Shown one piece after another: positions 2,733 through 12,511 of a stretch of DNA of 64,000 nt. The DNA lies in contig JAAHFN010000001.1 of NCBI GenBank assembly GCA_010672965.1, positions 62,001-126,000 of the forward strand, in the 5' to 3' direction. The stretch's first letter is position 1. Each line of letters opens with the position of its first letter. The translations under genes were made by a program, and so were the position numbers. Below the pieces are notes generated by a model. It had not been told where the DNA came from. It ran no database searches and worked only from the letters and a program-made list of their open reading frames with translations. This DNA is from Oscillatoria sp. SIO1A7 (lineage in GTDB: Bacteria > Cyanobacteriota > Cyanobacteriia > Cyanobacteriales > Laspinemataceae).

Positions 2733-2920
2733 AGAAATTGTCCTCTTTCTTCGCTACTTCCATGAAAACAAACCCCTTGCTTACTTCTGGTCTTAGCGGA
2801 GGCAAACTTATTCCCGACTTGTTCCCTAGTTTTGGTTCGCTTCCCGACTTAGCTACGCTTAGCCCGACTCGTCTGATATACTAGAAATTGTCTAAAATAC
2901 ATCCAATAAAGGGACTCTCT

Positions 2921-3172
2921 ATGCAAATCAAAGGCATCAAGCGCGGTAAAACCATCGAACTGGCAAACGAACCTAACATTCCTGACGGCCGGGAAATTCT
3001 CATTGATATTAACGATGCCCAGTTAACGAGCCCAGAGGAACAGAGGAAAAGTATAATGGAGTTCTTAGCACAGCCTTGGGAGGGAAGAGAAGATTTTCTC
3101 AAGACTATGGAAGAATTAGAGAGAGAAAAGGAGGCTGAGTGGGAAAAGCTCTACGGTCACTTAAATGATTGA
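2921..3172 (+). CDS. VapB-type antitoxin
   Basis: This encodes an 83-residue acidic protein beginning MQIKGIKRGKTIEL. The N-terminal beta-strand pattern (KGIKRGKTIELANEPNIPDG) is typical of AbrB-like or VapB-like antitoxins of cyanobacteria, followed by a helical toxin-binding C terminus rich in Glu (TMEELEREKEAEWEKL). I chose the ATG at 2921 over the upstream TTG at 2888 because AAGGGA lies 9 nt before it. The stop overlaps the leader of a PIN-domain toxin whose start is 9 bp further on, the usual antitoxin-toxin order and spacing. It should bind and silence VapC and autoregulate the pair. Its partner is interrupted, so it may now act as a free antitoxin. Confidence 0.75.
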   Translation: MQIKGIKRGKTIELANEPNIPDGREILIDINDAQLTSPEEQRKSIMEFLAQPWEGREDFLKTMEELEREKEAEWEKLYGHLND

Positions 3173-3180
3173 GGATATGT

Positions 3181-3576
3181 ATGTATTTGTTAGATACCAA
3201 CGTTTGTATTGCCATTAACAACCTAAACCCTCTAGCAGTGGCTGAATTTGCTGTTAAATCAAGCCAGTGCTATGTGGCAACAATAGTTGTGGCAGAATTG
3301 TATAAAGGGGCATACTGTTCTCAAAGAGTTGAGGAAAATCTAAGGAGATTTAATCAATTTCTGGAACGGGTTCGAGTATTAGAATTCGATCGCCATGCCG
3401 CCGAAGAATTTGGCAAGATTCAAGGGTAATTAAGGCGAATTGGCAGGCCAACGCAGGATTTTGATGCTGCCATAGCGGCGGTAGCCCGTTCCCGTGGATA
3501 TATTTTGGTGACCAACAATACGCGCCACTTTATCAATATTGCCGGTCTCCGTTTAGAAAACTGGTTGGAAAATTAG
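3181..3576 (+). pseudogene. VapC PIN-domain toxin with in-frame TAA
   Basis: From ATG 3181 (GAGGA upstream) the frame begins MYLLDTNVCI, the first acidic motif of PIN-domain ribonucleases, and includes the second acidic motif VVAELYKG. A TAA at 3427-3429 stops it after FGKIQG. The same frame then reads LRRIGRPTQDFDAAIAAVA and VTNNTRHF to a TAG at 3574-3576, which are the missing C-terminal catalytic Asp and the TNNT motif. One nonsense change therefore separates an otherwise complete toxin of about 131 residues. The active site is split, so the product should be inactive unless the stop is read through. I infer recent decay of a VapBC module. Confidence 0.8.
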
Positions 3577-3896: not shown

Positions 3897-6800
3897 CTAG
3901 CTTTTTGATTCAGGATAAACCAAAGCTCGAAATCCCTCGCTATCCCGAATCCTGTCAAAATCCGGGTTGTGCTTTGCTTCTCTTCGACTACGACGAGGTG
4001 CAATATCGATCGCTTTTTGCAGGTTATCTATCGCCGGTTCCACTTTTCCTTGTAAGGCGTAGTAACAGGCTTTAGCATAATGACCACCTTCACCTTGAGG
4101 ATTTTGCTCTATCGCTTGCTCGCAGTCAGCAAAAGCCTCTGCGTACCGACCCGCCCTCGCCAAAATAATGCCGCGATTGGCTATGAACAATACTTCTTGA
4201 GGTTCCAGAGATATCGCCCGCTCGATAGCTGTAATAGCGCGATCGAAATCTTTGAGCAAGCTCAGCGTTAGTGCTTGAGTATTTAGAGCTTCATAGTTCT
4301 TGGGGTCAATTTTTAAGGCGCGATCGCAAGCTGCAAGGGACTCCTCATACCGTCCTAGATTAAGGAACACATCTCCTCGATCTACCCAAGCATCAGCAGA
4401 TTCGGGGTCTAGCGCGATCGCCTTGTCAAAACTTGCAAGTGCTTCCTCATGTCGCTTTAGATTGCCAAGTACAGCCCCTCGATTTCTCCAAGCATCAGCA
4501 GACTCGGGGTCTAGCGCGATCGCCTTGTCAAAACTTGCAAGTGCTTCCTCATATCGCTTTAGATTGCCAAGTACAGCCCCTCGATTTCTCCAATTATCAG
4601 CAGATTCGGGGTCTAGCGCGATCGCCTTGTCAGAACTTTCAAGCGCTTCCTCATATCGCTCTAGATCGCTGAGTGCAACCCCTTGATATCTCCAAGCATC
4701 AGCAGATTTAGGATCTAGCGCGATCGCCTTGTCAGAACTTTCAAGCGCTTCCTCATGTCGCTTTAGAAGACTTAGTATAACCCCTCGACTTCTCCAAGCA
4801 TCATCAGATTCAGGTTTTAGCGCGATCGCCTTGTCAAAACTTGCAAGTGCTTCCTCATGTCGCTTTAGATTGCCAAGTACAGCCCCTCGATTTCTCCAAT
4901 TATCAGCAGATTCAGGTTTTAGCGCGATCGCCTCGTTAAAACTCTCAAGTGCTTCCTCATATCGCTTCAGATTACCTAGTGCAATACCCTGCCCGAGGAA
5001 GGTTGACGCATTACTCTGCCCTAACTCGATCGCCTTGTTATAGCAATCCAGTGCATCCTCGTAACGTTCCACACCGATTAGCAATTCCCCTATTTGAGAA
5101 AAAAGACTATGCAGCAGTTGCGGGCGGCAGCGAGTTAAGAGTTGTTCGGTTTGGCCTTTTGCCTCTAAAAGCAAGTCGATACTTTCCCTGAGCCTAAGGC
5201 TGCGTAAAGATTTATACACCAGTCCCAGGCACTTGCCAAAGCCATTTTCCAAATCGCCGACATATCGCAACAGGGATTGTATGGATGCCTCAATTTGTTT
5301 CACTAACGCTTCGGCCTCTTCTGCTGAAGCTTCGCGATCGCCTTCAATTGTGATTTTATAGCTGTTAGGCAACTCATCTAGAAAAAGCCAGCCGAACCCC
5401 AGCATAACCGTAGCCGATTCCTTAAAAAATTTGTTTGTCTCCTTAGCAAGCAGATGCTGGTTCTCTTCACTCATTTCCGCACTTATCCAGGCAACAGGAG
5501 CGGCAAATAGATCGGGCTGCTGCAGATCAACTGCAGCAAAGAACTGCTCGATATATTGCTGTAGTCCTTTTGTTCTTTTGCCAAAAAGACCGTGGTAGAG
5601 AGACTCTGCCATGAGTTCTCGCCATTCTTCATCCTCATAGGGTTCCGGTAAAAGGCTTTCGGGAGCAAAAATATCGTCTGCTTGTTGCTTAAAGTAATCG
5701 GCGAGCAGGGCATGAGTTTGACGAAACTGGTTGCGATCGCTCTGAAAGTAGGACTGCCGAAAGACATCCCGCGCTACGTCATCTAAGCGGTAACGCCTTT
5801 GGCTATACTCAACAAATTCCGAGTTTTTCAGCCATGCCAAGATACTCTCTGCATCATTAGCATCCTGTTGCCAGCCCAAGCTATCGTCACTTAGCAAATA
5901 CCGAATAGTTGCCTCATCGAACCATCGACAGCAAGCCACCACCTGCAAAATCTCCTTGCGCTGCCGATCGGGCTTTAGACCCTGCTGGGACTTTGTATCC
6001 TGCTGGGACTTTGTATCCTGCTGGGACTGCAATAGCAACTCGGCGATCGCCTGGTTTCCTTTGGAGAAGTCAGGTTCTTTATCTTTATCTTTTTCGTATT
6101 GCCCCCGCACCCAATTCAGATAATAGGGCAATCCCTTAGTTATTTTGTAGATTTTGTTGCGATCGCCGCCTTTTTTTATGCCAACTTCTTTGAGGTAGTT
6201 GTCCGTCTCCTTCTTGCTAAACCTTTTAAGCTCCACCTCATAAAGTAACTTTCGGTCTTGGCTGAGTTTGCGCCATGCCTCATCTGCTTGCAGCGATCGC
6301 CGCCCTACGACCGCGAGTCTTACCCGAGTGGAAGACAAGGGCGTATCCTCAACCAAATATTGCCACAGCCATTGATTCATATAAGCCTGGGCTTTTTCAT
6401 AAGTATCCAAAACCAGCACTAGGGGTCTTGCTCTGCTCTGGGCAATTTGGATCAAACTATCGGCAAACGCCTGGGTAAGTTGGGAAACTGGCTCCAACAT
6501 TAGCGCCTGTAGCTCGGGTTGATATTTGGTGGCAGGATGATTCCGAACTCGCTGCTGGATAGATTCTTGCCAGCCCTCTGCATATCCCCCTCCCGAAACT
6601 TCGGTTTTTGGCTTGCTTGAGAAGGAGGTAAAACCTGTTGAGCCCAGCCATAAGGAGCTTTCAAACCAGCTTGTAATCTTTCTAGCCTCTTCACTGCTAG
6701 TTTCCTGACCATCTGCTGACTGCCGACTTAACAGGTGTAAGGTCGTTGCAAATTGCTGCTCTCGTTGGCTAAATGGGTCGGGACTCGTTTCCGCACCTCC

Positions 6801-7316
6801 AAGCTCTATTGCTTTTTGATGTAGCCTTCGCATCAGTTTTAGCGGCGTTTCAATATCGTGGGTTTTGGTAAAACAAACTTCCAGAAAGTCAGCATCCCCT
6901 GCATAGGCGTCCTGCAATCGCCGCAACAACGTTGTTTTGCCAACTCCGCCAATTCCGCAAATGTTGAACAGCAAGGGTTGTCCTTGGAGCTGCTTCAATG
7001 CAGTTGCAAAGCGTTCTAGCAGTTTTTTCGCCTCATCTCGCTCGATGTAATACTCGTCCGGCACCGGCGATCGCATCGGAGACTCGCGGCTCGTCCCGGC
7101 TTCAGCTACCTGCCGATCCTGTTCCTTTGCTTGCGCTTCTTTTAGTTGAGCCTTTAGGCTGGCAACTTCCTTGCGCTTCTCCTCTAAATCTATCGCTAAA
7201 TTTGGCTCAAGTGAGGAGAAAGTTTTAGCTGCTACCTGTTTCTCCAAATGTGCTTGCACCCTTTCGGTAATGCCTAGTCTTTCCTTCAAGGTAGCGATGT
7301 CGTCCATAGATGCCAT
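3897..7316 (-). CDS. STAND NTPase with N-terminal adaptor module and TPR array
   Basis: This encodes 1139 residues. Residues 5-60 form a helical module (LEKQ.., then AIDLEEKRKEVASLKAQLKE) that is shared with two upstream proteins of the operon. An NTPase domain follows, with Walker A GIGGVGKTT (about 121-129), Walker B LVLVLDTYE (about 299-307) and a VVGRRSL sensor-like strand. A winged-helix-like region (about 450-560) and a helical linker come next, then 10-11 TPR units (about 750-1110). Several central TPRs (..AIALDPESADAWRNRG..) are almost identical, also in DNA. This is the layout of NLR-like signal-transduction ATPases: a repeat sensor, a nucleotide switch and an adaptor that recruits effectors. 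It lies 78 bp after the RelE gene on the same strand. The inferred role is an intracellular sensor of infection or stress; the ligand is unknown. Confidence 0.88.
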   Translation of the reverse strand: MASMDDIATLKERLGITERVQAHLEKQVAAKTFSSLEPNLAIDLEEKRKEVASLKAQLKEAQAKEQDRQVAEAGTSRESPMRSPVPDEYYIERDEAKKLLERFATALKQLQGQPLLFNICGIGGVGKTTLLRRLQDAYAGDADFLEVCFTKTHDIETPLKLMRRLHQKAIELGGAETSPDPFSQREQQFATTLHLLSRQSADGQETSSEEARKITSWFESSLWLGSTGFTSFSSKPKTEVSGGGYAEGWQESIQQRVRNHPATKYQPELQALMLEPVSQLTQAFADSLIQIAQSRARPLVLVLDTYEKAQAYMNQWLWQYLVEDTPLSSTRVRLAVVGRRSLQADEAWRKLSQDRKLLYEVELKRFSKKETDNYLKEVGIKKGGDRNKIYKITKGLPYYLNWVRGQYEKDKDKEPDFSKGNQAIAELLLQSQQDTKSQQDTKSQQGLKPDRQRKEILQVVACCRWFDEATIRYLLSDDSLGWQQDANDAESILAWLKNSEFVEYSQRRYRLDDVARDVFRQSYFQSDRNQFRQTHALLADYFKQQADDIFAPESLLPEPYEDEEWRELMAESLYHGLFGKRTKGLQQYIEQFFAAVDLQQPDLFAAPVAWISAEMSEENQHLLAKETNKFFKESATVMLGFGWLFLDELPNSYKITIEGDREASAEEAEALVKQIEASIQSLLRYVGDLENGFGKCLGLVYKSLRSLRLRESIDLLLEAKGQTEQLLTRCRPQLLHSLFSQIGELLIGVERYEDALDCYNKAIELGQSNASTFLGQGIALGNLKRYEEALESFNEAIALKPESADNWRNRGAVLGNLKRHEEALASFDKAIALKPESDDAWRSRGVILSLLKRHEEALESSDKAIALDPKSADAWRYQGVALSDLERYEEALESSDKAIALDPESADNWRNRGAVLGNLKRYEEALASFDKAIALDPESADAWRNRGAVLGNLKRHEEALASFDKAIALDPESADAWVDRGDVFLNLGRYEESLAACDRALKIDPKNYEALNTQALTLSLLKDFDRAITAIERAISLEPQEVLFIANRGIILARAGRYAEAFADCEQAIEQNPQGEGGHYAKACYYALQGKVEPAIDNLQKAIDIAPRRSRREAKHNPDFDRIRDSEGFRALVYPESKS

Positions 7317-7394
7317 AATCTCTAATTTAGAGTGATAAAAAGGCTAAATCCAGTTTAAATGCAATTGGAAAGGTTACAGAATGCGGATTCAATC

Positions 7395-7670
7395 CTAGAA
7401 ATTGCCTTGCGACAACAGCAGATCGTAATCCGCATGACTACCAATCCAATACCAAACTATTGTATCCCCATCTCGCAGGCCAACCGCTCGATAGTCTTTG
7501 CTTGCACGCGCCGAATAAATTTGTAGTTTTGGATGTACTCGCTTAAACCTTAGACCTGGGTGTCCGGGATCTTCTTGGAACTGGCGATAGGCTTTACGAG
7601 CCTGCTCTTGAACCTCCTGCGGTAGTTGGGAGAATGCCTTCCGGAACTTGGCAGTCGTTCGTGATTTCAT
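7395..7670 (-). CDS. RelE/ParE-family toxin
   Basis: This 91-residue basic protein has the RelE/ParE fold signature: an N-terminal helical hairpin (KFRKAFSQLPQEVQEQARK) then beta strands with GLRFKRVHPKLQIYSAR, DYRAVGLRDG and the C-terminal WIGSHADYDLLL. This closely matches cyanobacterial RelE-type toxins, which usually cleave mRNA at the ribosome. The ATG overlaps the stop of the upstream antitoxin-like gene by 4 bp (ATGA), the usual coupled arrangement. It lies inside the STAND operon, which is unusual for a toxin-antitoxin pair. Substrate and activity are inferred from the family. Confidence 0.85.
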   Translation of the reverse strand: MKSRTTAKFRKAFSQLPQEVQEQARKAYRQFQEDPGHPGLRFKRVHPKLQIYSARASKDYRAVGLRDGDTIVWYWIGSHADYDLLLSQGNF

Positions 7671-8023
7671 AGCGTTTCCGGATTTAGCGCTTGGGTTTGA
7701 CCGGCACGGTACTCGGCCATTGCCTCAGCCGCAAGCGAGGCTAATAAATCCTGGGAATTAGAAAATTTAGTATCCCATTTTAGTTCCTCTTCTCGTTCTT
7801 CGCTCGTTAGAAAATCTGATTCTCGTTCTTCCGCGATCGCTTCGTTGTAGTCTTCCTTGAATCTTGCCTCCAACTCTGCCACCTCCCGTCGCCTTTCTTC
7901 AAGGTCACTCCGCAGGCGATCGGGTATTTGCAACGCCGTATAGCCAGCAGCTTGCTTTTCCAAAATAGCAAGCGACTTTTTGGCAATTTCCAGTGTTTCC
8001 TTCAAAACAGCGCAATCCTGCAT
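7667..8023 (-). CDS. Adaptor-module antitoxin-like protein
   Basis: This encodes 118 residues. Residues about 8-54 (KKSLAILEKQAAGY, then RSDLEERRREVAELEARFKE) are nearly identical to the C-terminal module of the upstream phosphorylase protein and related to the N terminus of the STAND NTPase. After an acidic stretch (EERESDFLTSEEREEE), the last 30 residues (LLASLAAEAMAEYRAGQTQ, then ALNPETL) resemble the C-terminal toxin-binding segment of antitoxins paired with cyanobacterial RelE toxins. It starts 1 nt after the phosphorylase stop and overlaps relE by 4 bp. I infer an antitoxin fused to a STAND-system adaptor, so that the toxin can be held by, or released from, the sensor complex. No classical DNA-binding fold is obvious. 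Confidence 0.65.
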   Translation of the reverse strand: MQDCAVLKETLEIAKKSLAILEKQAAGYTALQIPDRLRSDLEERRREVAELEARFKEDYNEAIAEERESDFLTSEEREEELKWDTKFSNSQDLLASLAAEAMAEYRAGQTQALNPETL

Positions 8024-8024
8024 T

Positions 8025-9005
8025 TTATTCTCCTTCTTTCAGTCTTGCTTCTAATTCTGCCACCTGCCGCTGCTTTTCCTCAAGGTCAATCCGCAAGTGG
8101 GGGGGCATTTGCAACTCGCTAAAGCCAGCAGCTTGCTTTTCTAAAATAGCAAGCGATCGCTTTGCCATAGCCAGCGCCGGAGTTACTACTTCCCGGTCTG
8201 TCATTACCCCGGGCAAGTCAGGACTTTGGGCGGCCTGCGCGGCCGTACCTCGTTTCTCCTGCCAATCGATCGGCGCAAACTGTAGCGTCTGCACCACAAA
8301 GGCAGCGGCGTTTCCGGCGGCGGTTTGCTGGCGGGCGTCCTTGTCTTCTGCCTTGTTGCCGTCGGCCCAGTCACAAATGCTCTTAACCAGTATCCAATCT
8401 ATCTTTCTGTCATGACAGGCGGCATATAGACCGGCTCCCTCCATCTCCCCACCAATCGCTTCTGGCTCAAAGCCGCGTAGTTGGTCGCGAAAGTCCACAT
8501 TATCCACCAGCTTTTCCCCAGTCAGAACCACGCCAAAACGCACCGGAGCCCCGTTCCAAGACCAGTCTGCGCTCCTGAAGTAATTAATTAGCCACGGCGA
8601 GGCAGGAGGTTTGTCGCCCCGCAAGACAATCTGCGGTTTACCATCTTTTTCGCCCATCCGTTGCAGCTCGTATGGACGCAACTGTTTCGTAACCAGAATG
8701 TCGCCGATCGCTTGCTTGCGGTCGTCGATGCCAAAAGCAATTCCCACCATAATCACAGCAATGGGGGATAGTGCCTCAATACCCTTGCCAACTGCGAGCA
8801 AAGAAGCGTCCAAGCCGCTGCTGCCCATCTCGCATTGCGTTAGAAAAACCCTAGCACCGTTGACCGTTCCCAAGTTAAGGTACAGGCGATCGCCAATCGA
8901 TTTTGGCTCAGCCTCGCGATCGGCGGCCTGCTTGAAAGCCTGAATCACGGCACGGCTTTCCACTTTGGTTACGGTGACAATCAGAACGTCAGCTATAGAT
9001 GTCAT
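8025..9005 (-). CDS. Nucleoside-phosphorylase-domain effector with adaptor module
   Basis: This encodes 326 residues. Residues 1-245 form a purine/uridine phosphorylase-type domain: the strand DVLIVTVTKVESRAV, a VGIAFGID core, EMEGAGLYAA (nucleoside-binding Glu-Met-Glu) and VKSICDWADG (base-binding Asp). The C terminus (about 275-326: AKRSLAILEKQAAG, then IDLEEKQRQVAELEARL) is the helical module shared with the next protein and the STAND NTPase. Nucleoside-phosphorylase domains fused to adaptors are known effectors of STAND conflict systems, where they are thought to deplete nucleotides or nucleosides. It is the first gene of the four-gene operon. A housekeeping phosphorylase is less likely given the fusion and context. 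Confidence 0.85.
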   Translation of the reverse strand: MTSIADVLIVTVTKVESRAVIQAFKQAADREAEPKSIGDRLYLNLGTVNGARVFLTQCEMGSSGLDASLLAVGKGIEALSPIAVIMVGIAFGIDDRKQAIGDILVTKQLRPYELQRMGEKDGKPQIVLRGDKPPASPWLINYFRSADWSWNGAPVRFGVVLTGEKLVDNVDFRDQLRGFEPEAIGGEMEGAGLYAACHDRKIDWILVKSICDWADGNKAEDKDARQQTAAGNAAAFVVQTLQFAPIDWQEKRGTAAQAAQSPDLPGVMTDREVVTPALAMAKRSLAILEKQAAGFSELQMPPHLRIDLEEKQRQVAELEARLKEGE

Positions 9006-9045
9006 AAATGTAATTTGCGATCGAGAAAAAAGCTAATACAAACTG

Positions 9046-9051
9046 ATTATA
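9046..9051 (-). promoter_or_regulatory. Possible -10 box of the STAND operon
   Basis: A perfect TATAAT on the minus strand lies about 40 bp upstream of the first operon start codon. No good -35 is seen at 17 bp, so the call is weak. One end of a GGGAGCATTTCA repeat lies immediately upstream (9074). The wider stretch 9006-9470 holds only repeats and no convincing gene. Confidence 0.3.
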
Positions 9052-9470
9052 AAAGAAAAGCGAGTTTTTAGAGGGGAGCATTTCACCTTTGTAAAAAACA
9101 GCTCTATTGGACTTAGGTGGCAGGCAAAATGGCGCTGCGGGTCCGCCCCAGTCGTGTAATAGCCGCACGCGATCGGGGGTATTGGGACAGGCGGAGAGGT
9201 TGGCATCGGTGCGGTCCTGGTTTTTATTGAGATATTTAAAGGCAAGTAACAAAGGCGCAAAACTTTTGTAACTTTCTATGGAGTGAAGTTTTGTTTTTTG
9301 AATCGGCCTTGCCAGATGCTTGGAAGTGGGTTTTAATGCCTGAAAAACCAGAAGTAGCCCTCCAGGCAAGCCATAAGCAATTATACCATGTATTTGTTGT
9401 TACAAATTGCTAGAGAATGACGGGCTAGCTCTTGGGAACTCTTGCGAACTTGAAAGCTGAGGAAAAACAA

Positions 9471-9749
9471 ATGCGCGATCGCCCAGAAAAAGACCGAGTA
9501 ATGACAGCATTTCGTCAAGAATGCTCTATCCGCCGGACTGCTAGATTGCTACAAGGAAAGCGCGATCGAATTCGAGAAGATCTTCGGCAGTTAATCTCGC
9601 ATATGGCTCTGTTAGTACCGCCGGTGCCAGGAGCGACTAGAGGCACTGACCCTCCCACAGAGGTACTAACAGAAGCTCTCAATAGATTGGGAGATGACGC
9701 CTTTGCCCAATTAGTTTTGCAGATACTCCAAGAAATACAGCCTTATTAA
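9471..9749 (+). CDS. Small HTH-like hypothetical protein
   Basis: I start at ATG 9471 because GAGGA lies 8 nt upstream; the frame is also open to a TTG at 9432. The 92-residue product begins MRDRPEKDRVM and has a basic helical segment (FRQECSIRRTARLLQGKRD) that reads like a recognition helix-turn-helix, then a Pro/Thr linker (PPVPGATRGTDPPTE) and an acidic C-terminal helix (LNRLGDDAFAQLVLQILQEI). It is not a family I recognise. It lies divergent from the STAND operon, separated by repeats, so a regulatory role for that island is conceivable but not shown. Confidence 0.5.
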   Translation: MRDRPEKDRVMTAFRQECSIRRTARLLQGKRDRIREDLRQLISHMALLVPPVPGATRGTDPPTEVLTEALNRLGDDAFAQLVLQILQEIQPY

Positions 9750-9780
9750 TTTGGGCATTGGGCATGTTCGCATTGGGCAT

Positions 9781-9894
9781 GGGTGCATTTCAATGAAAGT
9801 AATTAGCGGTTATTCTCTTCCTCTGCTCCTCTGCTCCTCTGCTCCTCTGCTCCTCTGCTCTATTTGCAAATATGAAATGCACCCTTGGGCATTG
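9781..9894. mobile_element. MITE-like element, GGGTGCATTTCA variant
   Basis: Inverted ends GGGTGCATTTCA and TGAAATGCACCC with a TTTGCAAAT inner block enclose a run of GCTCCTCT octamers. It belongs to the same family as 1682-1815 with one changed base in both ends, a compensatory change that supports a maintained inverted repeat. Confidence 0.5.
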
Positions 9895-10012
9895 GGCATG
9901 TTCGCATTGGGCAGGGAGCAGCAAATTTACCCCTTGCCCCCAACCCGTTCCTTACAAGAGTATGTTTTTTATATTTTGGCATTCAGCAGAGGGATCGAAT
10001 ATCGATTATTGA

Positions 10013-10092
10013 GGGCGTAGGGGCGACAGCATTCCCGAGACAGCTTGTGCTATTAAAGAAAATTATTGTATTGGAATGCTTCGCCCAGAAAC
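10013..10092. mobile_element. Short inverted-repeat element, GAAGCATTCC family
   Basis: This is the reverse complement of the element at 28689-28875: GTAGGGGCGACAGCATTCC at one end and GGAATGCTTCGCCC at the other, around TAGCACAAGCTG-like sequence. Other copies lie at 62500-62764. The rest of 9750-10214 holds GGGCATT-type tandem repeats and no gene. Confidence 0.5.
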
Positions 10093-11287: not shown

Positions 11288-12511
11288 ATGACAAAGAAAT
11301 CCCAAAAACTAATAGCGATCGCTCGTTCTACTGGCAAGCGCCTCAAATTGGGCAGCTATCGTCCCGACAAAGAAGATCCTAACGACAAAAAATATGCCGC
11401 CGATCGCTATTCCAGCGAAGAACTTCCCTCCCGGGTTGACCTGCGCCAACATATGAGCGCGGTGGAAGACCAAGGGGAGGTGGGCAGTTGCACCGCAAAC
11501 GCAATGGCGGGAGCATACGAATACCTCGCCAAGCGAACTTTAGGATACTCTGGAGATGTCAGCCGCTTATTTGTTTATTACAATGCAAGGGCTCTAGAAG
11601 CAGAACATAAAAAGGACGTCGGAACTTCTCTGCGCAACTGCATTCAAGTCTTGCGGGTTATGGGGACTTGCGCCGAAGAAATATGGCCTTATGACCCGGA
11701 GACGCTAAACGAACGACCCTCCTCAGAAGCTTATGAGGATGCAGCGAGATTTTTAATTGAAGATGCCCAGCGCATTAACATCGATCTGGATGCGATGAAA
11801 CATTGTCTGGCCGAAGGCTATCCCTTTGCCTTTGGACTGGTACTATTCGAGTCATTTATGAAGTCGCGCCAAGGGCGGATTCCCATGCCCGATCTAGAAA
11901 ACGAGCAGTTCCTGGGAGGTCACGCCATGCTCTGCGTCGGCTACTCCGACCAATCCCAAGTTTTTGTTGCGCGCAATTCTTGGGGCTCGGACTGGGGAGA
12001 TAAGGGCTACTGCTATATTCCCTACGATTACATTGCCAATCCCCAATACTGCGCCGACTGCTGGACTATCAGAAAAGTCACCGACCTCGACTTCACCTCC
12101 GATATCTGGTACGAAGACGAAGAAGGTTTTTACGAAGAGGATTGCGAAGACGAAGAGGATTACGAAGACGATTACGATTACGAGGACGAAGAAGATTACG
12201 ACGAAGACTACGACGAAGAATATTACGAGGAAGATTACGACGAAGACGAAGAAGATTACGGCGAGGACGAAGAAAATTACGACGAAGACGAAGAAAATTA
12301 CGACGAGGACGAAGAAAATTACGACGAAGACGAAGAAGATTACGACGAGGACGAAGAAAATTACGACGAAGACGAAGAAGATTACGACGAAGACGAAGAA
12401 GATTACGACGAGGACGAAGAAGATTACGACGAGGACGAAGAAGATTACGACGAGGACGAAGAAGATTACGACGAAGACGAAGAAGATTACGACGAAGACG
12501 AAGAAGATTAG
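11288..12511 (+). CDS. Papain-like C1 peptidase with acidic repeat tail
   Basis: This encodes 407 residues. The peptidase domain (about 45-265) shows the oxyanion Gln62 and catalytic Cys68 in DQGEVGSCTANA, His212 in GGHAMLCVGY and Asn230 in ARNSWG, all in family C1A order. There is no signal peptide or obvious propeptide, so it is probably cytoplasmic. From about residue 275 the protein becomes a tail of roughly 130 residues built of Asp, Glu and Tyr, with a heptad EDYDEDE encoded by near-perfect 21-bp tandem repeats (about 12230-12510). The tail is extremely acidic and could bind Ca2+ or basic partners, or act as an inhibitor; this is inference. No partner gene is adjacent. Confidence 0.88.
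   Translation: MTKKSQKLIAIARSTGKRLKLGSYRPDKEDPNDKKYAADRYSSEELPSRVDLRQHMSAVEDQGEVGSCTANAMAGAYEYLAKRTLGYSGDVSRLFVYYNARALEAEHKKDVGTSLRNCIQVLRVMGTCAEEIWPYDPETLNERPSSEAYEDAARFLIEDAQRINIDLDAMKHCLAEGYPFAFGLVLFESFMKSRQGRIPMPDLENEQFLGGHAMLCVGYSDQSQVFVARNSWGSDWGDKGYCYIPYDYIANPQYCADCWTIRKVTDLDFTSDIWYEDEEGFYEEDCEDEEDYEDDYDYEDEEDYDEDYDEEYYEEDYDEDEEDYGEDEENYDEDEENYDEDEENYDEDEEDYDEDEENYDEDEEDYDEDEEDYDEDEEDYDEDEEDYDEDEEDYDEDEEDYDEDEED

Follow-up and report, generated by a model that had tools for sequence, protein, structure and literature searches.

The 118-residue protein encoded at 7667–8023 (minus strand) of the window joins the tail of a cyanobacterial antitoxin to a small adaptor that also occurs on two neighbouring proteins, a phosphorylase-like enzyme and a STAND-type NTPase. 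The window is the whole stretch of 64,000 nucleotides of Oscillatoria sp. SIO1A7 that was analysed. With moderate confidence, we read the gene cluster as an EAD-coupled STAND conflict system that captured a RelE toxin–antitoxin pair as an extra effector arm. On the sequence side, this reading is backed by the shared adaptor, the antitoxin tail, the RelE fold, the gene order and an EAD-like distribution of the adaptor.

A gene cluster with three adaptor copies

The source genome is a 9.08-Mb draft in 182 contigs (completeness 100, contamination 0.32). Four intact ORFs follow each other on the minus strand of the window, in order of transcription: a PNP_UDP_1 effector assigned by Pfam (nucleoside phosphorylase/nucleosidase-like, 326 aa, 8025–9005), the 118-aa adaptor-antitoxin (7667–8023), a RelE/ParE-superfamily toxin of 91 aa (7395–7670), and a STAND-type NTPase of 1139 aa with C-terminal TPRs (3897–7316). 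The ATG of the antitoxin lies 1 bp past the phosphorylase stop and is preceded by GAAGGAG, a strong Shine–Dalgarno-like sequence. The 4-bp overlap with relE reported in the earlier note is exact (7667–7670), and the STAND start follows the relE stop after a gap of 78 bp. A sigma-70 scan of 7250–9500 gave 0 promoter-like sites versus 1.7 expected, which says little.

The 118-aa protein consists of an EAD-like adaptor (residues 1–57), a linker (approximately residues 58–70) and a tail (residues 71–118) that is predicted to bind the toxin. That its N-terminal part is common to the phosphorylase and the NTPase, as had been noticed previously, was borne out by a search of the whole genome: the N-terminus was 60% identical to the C-terminus of the phosphorylase over residues 2–59 (E 4.5e-15) and 47% identical to the N-terminus of the STAND protein over residues 1–59 (E 3.8e-7), and the next-best places in the genome had E values of 0.09 and 0.85. 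A nine-row adaptor profile, built with the three window copies among its rows, gave these copies 93.8–106.2 bits and the next place an E value of 0.28. The copies are located at 7853–8023 (antitoxin), 8031–8204 (phosphorylase) and 7134–7307 (STAND protein), all on the minus strand. Thus, the three adaptor copies belong to one gene cluster, with no other convincing place in the 9.08-Mb genome. The copy on the antitoxin scored 104.5 bits, the second-highest value among 32 copies, in a comparison that favours the window copies as members of the profile.

The adaptor is small (about 57 aa) and non-enzymatic. It was predicted to form a two-helix hairpin, with block-mean pLDDT values of 76–89 over residues 1–60 in a model based on a shallow, seven-row alignment. 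Sequence searches of Pfam, NCBIfam, PADLOC and PDB with the adaptor returned no meaningful match, and no Pfam EAD model matched the 118-aa protein or any of nine adaptors at E ≤ 1. The best PDB match of the adaptor profile, to Csf5, had an E value of 0.095 and was treated as chance. A death-like fold (DD, CARD or bDLD), which is a six-helix bundle of about 80–90 residues, was ruled out by the length of 57 aa and the two predicted helices. Chance coiled-coil likeness was rejected as the source of the sharing given the 93.8–106.2 bits of the three copies versus the next E value of 0.28.

The STAND-type protein has a P-loop (GIGGVGKT) at residue 121, a Walker-B-like LVLVLD recognised by eye, and TPRs (TPR_1, E 2e-80). 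Its Pfam NTPase scores were 32.2 bits for AAA_16 (cut-off 32.6) and 22.6 for NACHT (cut-off 26.7); the STAND-type protein of a sister locus scored 46.9 bits for NB-ARC (cut-off 23.5). A search with the STAND protein yielded 11 matches in nine genomes. Only those in the window and in one other genome (G099) extended into the adaptor region; the other nine matches, to STAND relatives without the adaptor, began at query residue 72 or later. Convergent with the STAND gene is a further pair of genes with a 4-bp overlap (2888–3429, plus strand), presumably of the VapB and PIN families, in which the PIN-like ORF is just 86 aa long and looks truncated.

The antitoxin tail and the RelE-type toxin

The earlier note had called the C-terminal tail typical of antitoxins, and the comparison with other cyanobacteria agrees. 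Residues 71–118 (7670–7813) match the C-terminus of widespread stand-alone cyanobacterial antitoxins of about 72 aa, with identities over the matched stretch of 53–77% in the loci of a pattern-based scan and down to 36% in the phylum search. Leaving out the window genome, 62 loci contained 63 tail ORFs, of which 39 were accompanied by RelE homologues at the exact 4-bp overlap, eight had RelE at other spacings, and 16 had no recognisable RelE ORF. By homology, the tail and RelE are a conserved pair of cyanobacterial toxin–antitoxin systems, and as sequence features both halves of the 118-aa protein, like the overlap, go far beyond what chance would produce.

The N-terminus of the stand-alone family (MTELLExAIxxLKxLPxxEQDAIAxxILEELEDE) is missing from the 118-aa protein, in which the adaptor occupies its position; the N-terminus of this antitoxin is therefore not family-typical. 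The earlier note had set this half apart from a DNA-binding fold. This contrast calls for a qualification: the family N-terminus looks helical by eye, a scan of one member gave DUF1654 as the top Pfam hit (E 0.032), and DNA binding by it would be at most putative. The window genome showed no stand-alone antitoxin of the tail family, and so the fusion is the sole candidate antidote of this family there. Beyond a match to a 23-residue fragment, no second RelE of the toxin's family was found in the same genome.

The tail also occurs on other N-termini. At L112 (2353–3126, minus strand), it is attached to an unrelated N-terminus of about 210 aa that matches HSDR_N weakly (E 0.0011), and the ORF lies directly 5' of a RelE homologue. 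Different short N-termini precede it at L070 (7914–8147, plus strand; SKYDFAQMEGSIRGKYVKR) and at L066 (7950–8147, plus strand; SEYDFAQMEAGIRGKYVKR), with no RelE neighbour found at either. N-terminal exchange thus occurs outside STAND systems, and an accidental origin of the fusion is therefore quite possible. A natural antitoxin–toxin fusion was seen at L110 (1937–2488, minus strand), where a 183-aa ORF runs from a stand-alone-type antitoxin in frame into a segment that we take to be HigB-like.

The toxin matched the Pfam family PF24732 (ParE_like) at E 4.9e-12. It keeps 34 of 38 near-invariant columns, defined by conservation in at least 95% of a set of 33 homologues selected at 85–95 aa; the changes are S39G, P50Q, I72V and F74Y. 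A search of PDB sequences with a toxin profile gave YoeB as best match, at E 0.15. An AlphaFold2 model from 34 rows (mean pLDDT 86.5, pTM 0.75) had RelE, YafQ and YoeB toxins as its best structural matches. Foldseek placed it with RelE chain 3bpq_B at E 3.6e-5, and VIA-align superposed it on RelE (3bpq) with Z 11.3 and an rmsd of 2.3 over 84 residues, on YafQ with Z 10.9 and on the RelE-fold part of Cami1 with Z 10.0. ParE chains mostly gave Z values of about 7.9–8.9, and a chain titled YoeB/ParE gave 10.3. Judged from the modelled fold, ribosome-dependent mRNA cleavage is the more probable activity of the toxin, although the family name ParE_like may point to a target other than translation.

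Adaptor loci, rarity of the fusion and its origin

We estimated the distribution of the adaptor with the nine-adaptor profile. Three of 386 phylum genomes matched at E ≤ 0.001, and 22 of 388 order genomes matched at E ≤ 0.01, with 15, including the window genome, below 1e-6. These 15 strong genomes made up the census; the other seven (E 0.0017–0.0099) were left out before counting. A weak match in G407 (E 0.009), from the search of 38 other relatives, fell in an ORF of about 730 aa that appears kinase-like by eye, and was rejected. Two families in which strong matches had been found (20 and 61 genomes) added no further genome. G525 and L050 (Spirulina SIO3F2), which have identical ORFs, were counted as one locus.

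In all 16 loci of the 15 genomes, a STAND/NB-ARC-type frame and a neighbouring effector frame both carried the adaptor. Effectors were caspases (six loci), PNP (five), TIR (four) and a PNP remnant (one); types were assigned by Pfam, except at two TIR loci, which were assigned by similarity of at least 79% alone. Of the 16 STAND frames, 14 had a visible P-loop. The frame of G454 is cut short at 120 aa, close to the start of the contig, and that of the second G529 locus, which shares 60% identity with the window protein, contains an internal stop. The loci are not 16 independent events, as they include close relatives such as G663/G668 and G622/G636/G658. As far as sequence can tell, this distribution is the published EAD pattern, and it strengthens the adaptor reading beyond the evidence of the earlier note, whose proposed architecture, an antitoxin tail on a STAND adaptor, proved right. 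Because the adaptor follows the EAD pattern at all 16 loci, we read the toxin pair as a captured arm.

Some of the sister loci are visibly degraded. At the second G529 locus (L141, 4205–6556, minus strand), the PNP body is gone and an adaptor-only ORF of 65 aa is left in a decaying system. At L073 (8562–10542), a caspase-adaptor effector is split by an IS-like insertion, with transposase-like ORFs recognised by eye at 9221–10089, beside an intact adaptor-STAND gene.

A third adaptor copy, on an antitoxin, was found only at the window locus. The other 15 loci, as fetched, contained no antitoxin-tail or RelE ORF, and their adaptors were located on an enzyme (14 loci) or in an adaptor-only remnant (one locus), never on an inhibitor. 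The earlier note had suggested looking for other antitoxins with this N-terminal module; none turned up in 385 other phylum genomes, 38 other relatives (an overlapping set) or the scan of a contig collection. The objection named in that note, that adaptor antitoxins might never lie next to STAND genes, therefore keeps its weight. In the first search, the 118-aa query had matches at E ≤ 0.001 in 45 of the 386 phylum genomes, one of them that of the window, and none of the 44 other matched genomes had the adaptor and tail in one match; G099 and G338 have both, apart. Some tail matches in this search extended to query residues 29–48, which corresponds to the stand-alone N-terminus, three of them through read-through of stops, and none covered adaptor residues 1–28. 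Among the 38 other relatives, which partly overlap the phylum set, 15 matched at E ≤ 0.01, none with an adaptor–tail fusion. The pattern-based scan of the genome contig collection gave 38 loci, 37 with the tail, one with the adaptor (L050) and none with the fusion. The plasmid records had no match to the 118-aa protein, and relatives were likewise absent from the viral contigs. RelE relatives were present on three plasmid records, and one stand-alone antitoxin had no plasmid match. The fusion is a single case in the searched genomes, which is the main weakness of the captured-effector reading.

The geometry of the locus suggests how the fusion arose. At the other adaptor loci, excluding the decayed G529 locus, the STAND and effector frames overlapped by as much as 20 bp or were up to 481 bp apart; in the window, the PNP and STAND genes are separated by those of the toxin and the antitoxin. 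At L050, the adaptor-STAND gene follows the phosphorylase gene after 3 bp with no toxin–antitoxin pair between them, and it is this position that the antitoxin start takes up in the window. The adaptor DNA of the antitoxin is a mosaic of 51 bp that are STAND-like (34/51 matches to STAND versus 25/51 to PNP) followed by 120 bp that are phosphorylase-like (97/120 matches to PNP versus 56/120 to STAND), with the boundary placed by eye. Because of this mosaic and the gene order at L050, we infer that the pair inserted at the beginning of the STAND gene and retained the start and adaptor of that gene, that conversion by the PNP copy followed later, and that the STAND gene would have been left with a more divergent adaptor after the insertion. 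Just 5' of the phosphorylase gene lies a caspase-effector remnant of 22 codons (9145–9210, minus strand; 68% identity over 22 residues, E 3e-4), and intact caspase-adaptor effectors are present in some sister loci; the remnant suggests an earlier effector change at the locus.

An adaptor tree, in which 14 of 28 inner branches stayed open, placed the antitoxin copy beside STAND copies (93/86); its nearest sequence is the PNP copy (63%). The origin of the antitoxin adaptor is blurred by this disagreement, which is to be expected since the copy is a mosaic. Between the PNP and antitoxin copies, 23 of 120 bases and 11 of 40 residues are different. The mean number of residue changes in neutral simulations was 14.8 or 14.7 versus the 11 observed, with 72 and 96 of 2000 runs as low. 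Purifying selection on the antitoxin adaptor is thus faintly visible, and the pairwise values over codons 17–57 (dN 0.14, dS 0.52) point in the same direction.

These results leave room for an addiction module that landed in the PNP–STAND cluster, an alternative that we consider unlikely. The adaptor would then be no more than a borrowed start codon and helical N-terminus outside STAND control, and the antitoxin would still neutralise RelE and at most stabilise the cluster. The one fusion example, the tail on other N-termini at L112 and L066/L070, and the slight selection signal all suit such an accident. A neutral 57-residue passenger, however, would be expected to drift, and the adaptor is complete, with the second of 32 scores. 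It also resembles both partners of the same cluster piecewise, and the gene order and adaptor sharing fit the effector slot of all 16 loci.

We regard as improbable a second alternative, in which the 118-aa protein acts through its adaptor only, as a decoy or brake that caps the STAND/PNP adaptor assembly, much as CARD-only and pyrin-only proteins cap assembly in animals. RelE binding would couple its level to the proteolytic state of the cell, so that PNP and RelE would both be licensed once the antitoxin is lost. In favour of this alternative, the protein lacks any enzymatic domain, and the adaptor that it carries, nearest to the PNP copy (63%), could compete for that of STAND. The adaptor-only 65-aa ORF in G529 (L141) might pass for a parallel, but it looks like what is left of PNP after a deletion, next to a STAND frame interrupted by a stop, rather than a selected decoy; the sequence itself favours neither a decoy nor a recruiter. 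A dead or decaying chimera, that is, a recent accident with a silent toxin, would fit the unique occurrence and the turnover in the cluster (caspase remnant, broken copies in sister loci), but is very improbable given four intact ORFs, the 34 of 38 near-invariant columns kept by RelE, the strong Shine–Dalgarno-like sequence and the family's usual 4-bp overlap.

Proposed mechanism and known systems

Returning to the captured effector arm, the complete adaptor copy, the restriction of copies to the cluster, the conservation of RelE, the insertion geometry and the mosaic speak for it. Against it stand the single case, the slight selection signal, the absence of the adaptor from inhibitors elsewhere, the blurred origin and the name ParE_like. 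Its more specific form, which we put forward tentatively and rate at somewhat less than an even chance, is a new EAD family in which an NLR-like STAND protein would gate a toxin–antitoxin pair in trans. The antitoxin would be the signalling adaptor, and adaptor assembly, rather than general antitoxin proteolysis, would convert the sensing of infection into RelE release together with the attack of the phosphorylase on nucleotides.

In the captured-arm reading, the antitoxin would have exchanged its own N-terminus for a copy of the cluster's adaptor. Homotypic adaptor–adaptor contact would tether the RelE–antitoxin complex to the STAND protein, alongside the phosphorylase, and in the resting state the 118-aa protein would, most likely, keep RelE inactive through its tail. 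Upon sensing of a putative trigger by the TPR/NTPase part, the STAND protein would oligomerise, and the clustered adaptors would rearrange the antitoxin or open it to proteolysis. Freed RelE would halt translation while the phosphorylase attacks nucleotides, with growth arrest or cell death as the presumed outcome. A model of the 118-aa protein, based on a seven-row alignment of adaptor rows only (mean pLDDT 77.7, pTM 0.42), shows a helix at residues 2–26 and a long helix at 35–112. It faintly hints at a continuous helix from adaptor helix 2 into the toxin-binding helix, which would let adaptor assembly pull on the latter.

According to the excerpts of Kaur et al. (2020, 2021; PMC7159879, PMC8195603), EADs are small adaptors of which one copy lies on a core component and others on effectors that can be exchanged; joining by homotypic contact was proposed, and the systems occur in cyanobacteria. 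Like the systems in these excerpts, the present loci have a small non-catalytic domain on the terminus of an NTPase and on effectors encoded by adjacent genes (PNP, caspase, TIR). Copies are present on core and effector, the domain is small and predicted to be mostly alpha-helical, and the effectors are diverse. The present adaptor differs from EADs in having no Pfam EAD model and in being a predicted two-helix hairpin of about 57 aa, and, with respect to EADs as described in the same excerpts (PMC7159879, PMC8195603), in having one copy on an antitoxin. No fusion of an antitoxin with the adaptor of an EAD or STAND system was found in the open-access PMC literature, including the excerpts of PMC7159879, PMC8195603, PMC10907252 and PMC7935541.

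The pair shares with RelBE, YafQ–DinJ and YoeB–YefM the RelE fold, the antitoxin gene in first place and the 4-bp overlap, and its tail is conserved within the cyanobacterial family. Unlike in those systems, the antitoxin N-terminus is an immune-type adaptor and the genes lie inside a PNP–STAND cluster. The orthocaspase MaOC1 of Microcystis is described in the excerpts of PMC7935541 as cleaving the free antitoxin of a ParE/ParD-like toxin–antitoxin system, so that the toxin is no longer blocked. In both cases, a cyanobacterial toxin–antitoxin pair lies beside a gene of the cell-death type and the antitoxin is the control point; the control in those excerpts is proteolytic, and they describe no shared adaptor (PMC7935541). 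The present cluster also differs in having no intact caspase gene, only the 22-codon remnant.

In CapRel, sensing is performed by the antitoxin part. The excerpts of PMC11578894 and PMC13423816 describe this fused toxin–antitoxin defence protein as sensing phage proteins itself. The present system would resemble CapRel in using a toxin–antitoxin pair as an immune switch, and would differ from it in passing the sensing to a separate STAND protein. Cami1 is a CRISPR-associated effector. The titles of its PDB entries (8phb, 8phj) refer to cA4-bound and ribosome-bound forms, and it has a RelE-fold part. Both Cami1 and the present cluster would use a RelE domain as a signal-gated effector; gating by cyclic tetra-adenylate is in cis in Cami1, whereas the gating proposed here would be in trans, via the antitoxin. 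By analogy, these precedents would cover single steps, namely the cleavage of an antitoxin by MaOC1 and the RelE domain of Cami1.

How a specific signal triggers chromosomal toxin–antitoxin pairs is a long-argued question. If the proposed reading is true, an antitoxin with the adaptor of an NLR-like switch would provide a defined route from sensor to toxin, and RelE-type toxins would join the list of EAD/STAND effectors. The census yields a small and tractable family of adaptors, 57 residues in length, whose partners are caspase, TIR, phosphorylase and antitoxin. Elsewhere in the window, an ORF at 11288–12511 (plus strand) encodes what is presumably a papain-like peptidase with a long acidic C-terminal repeat of the YDEDEED type.
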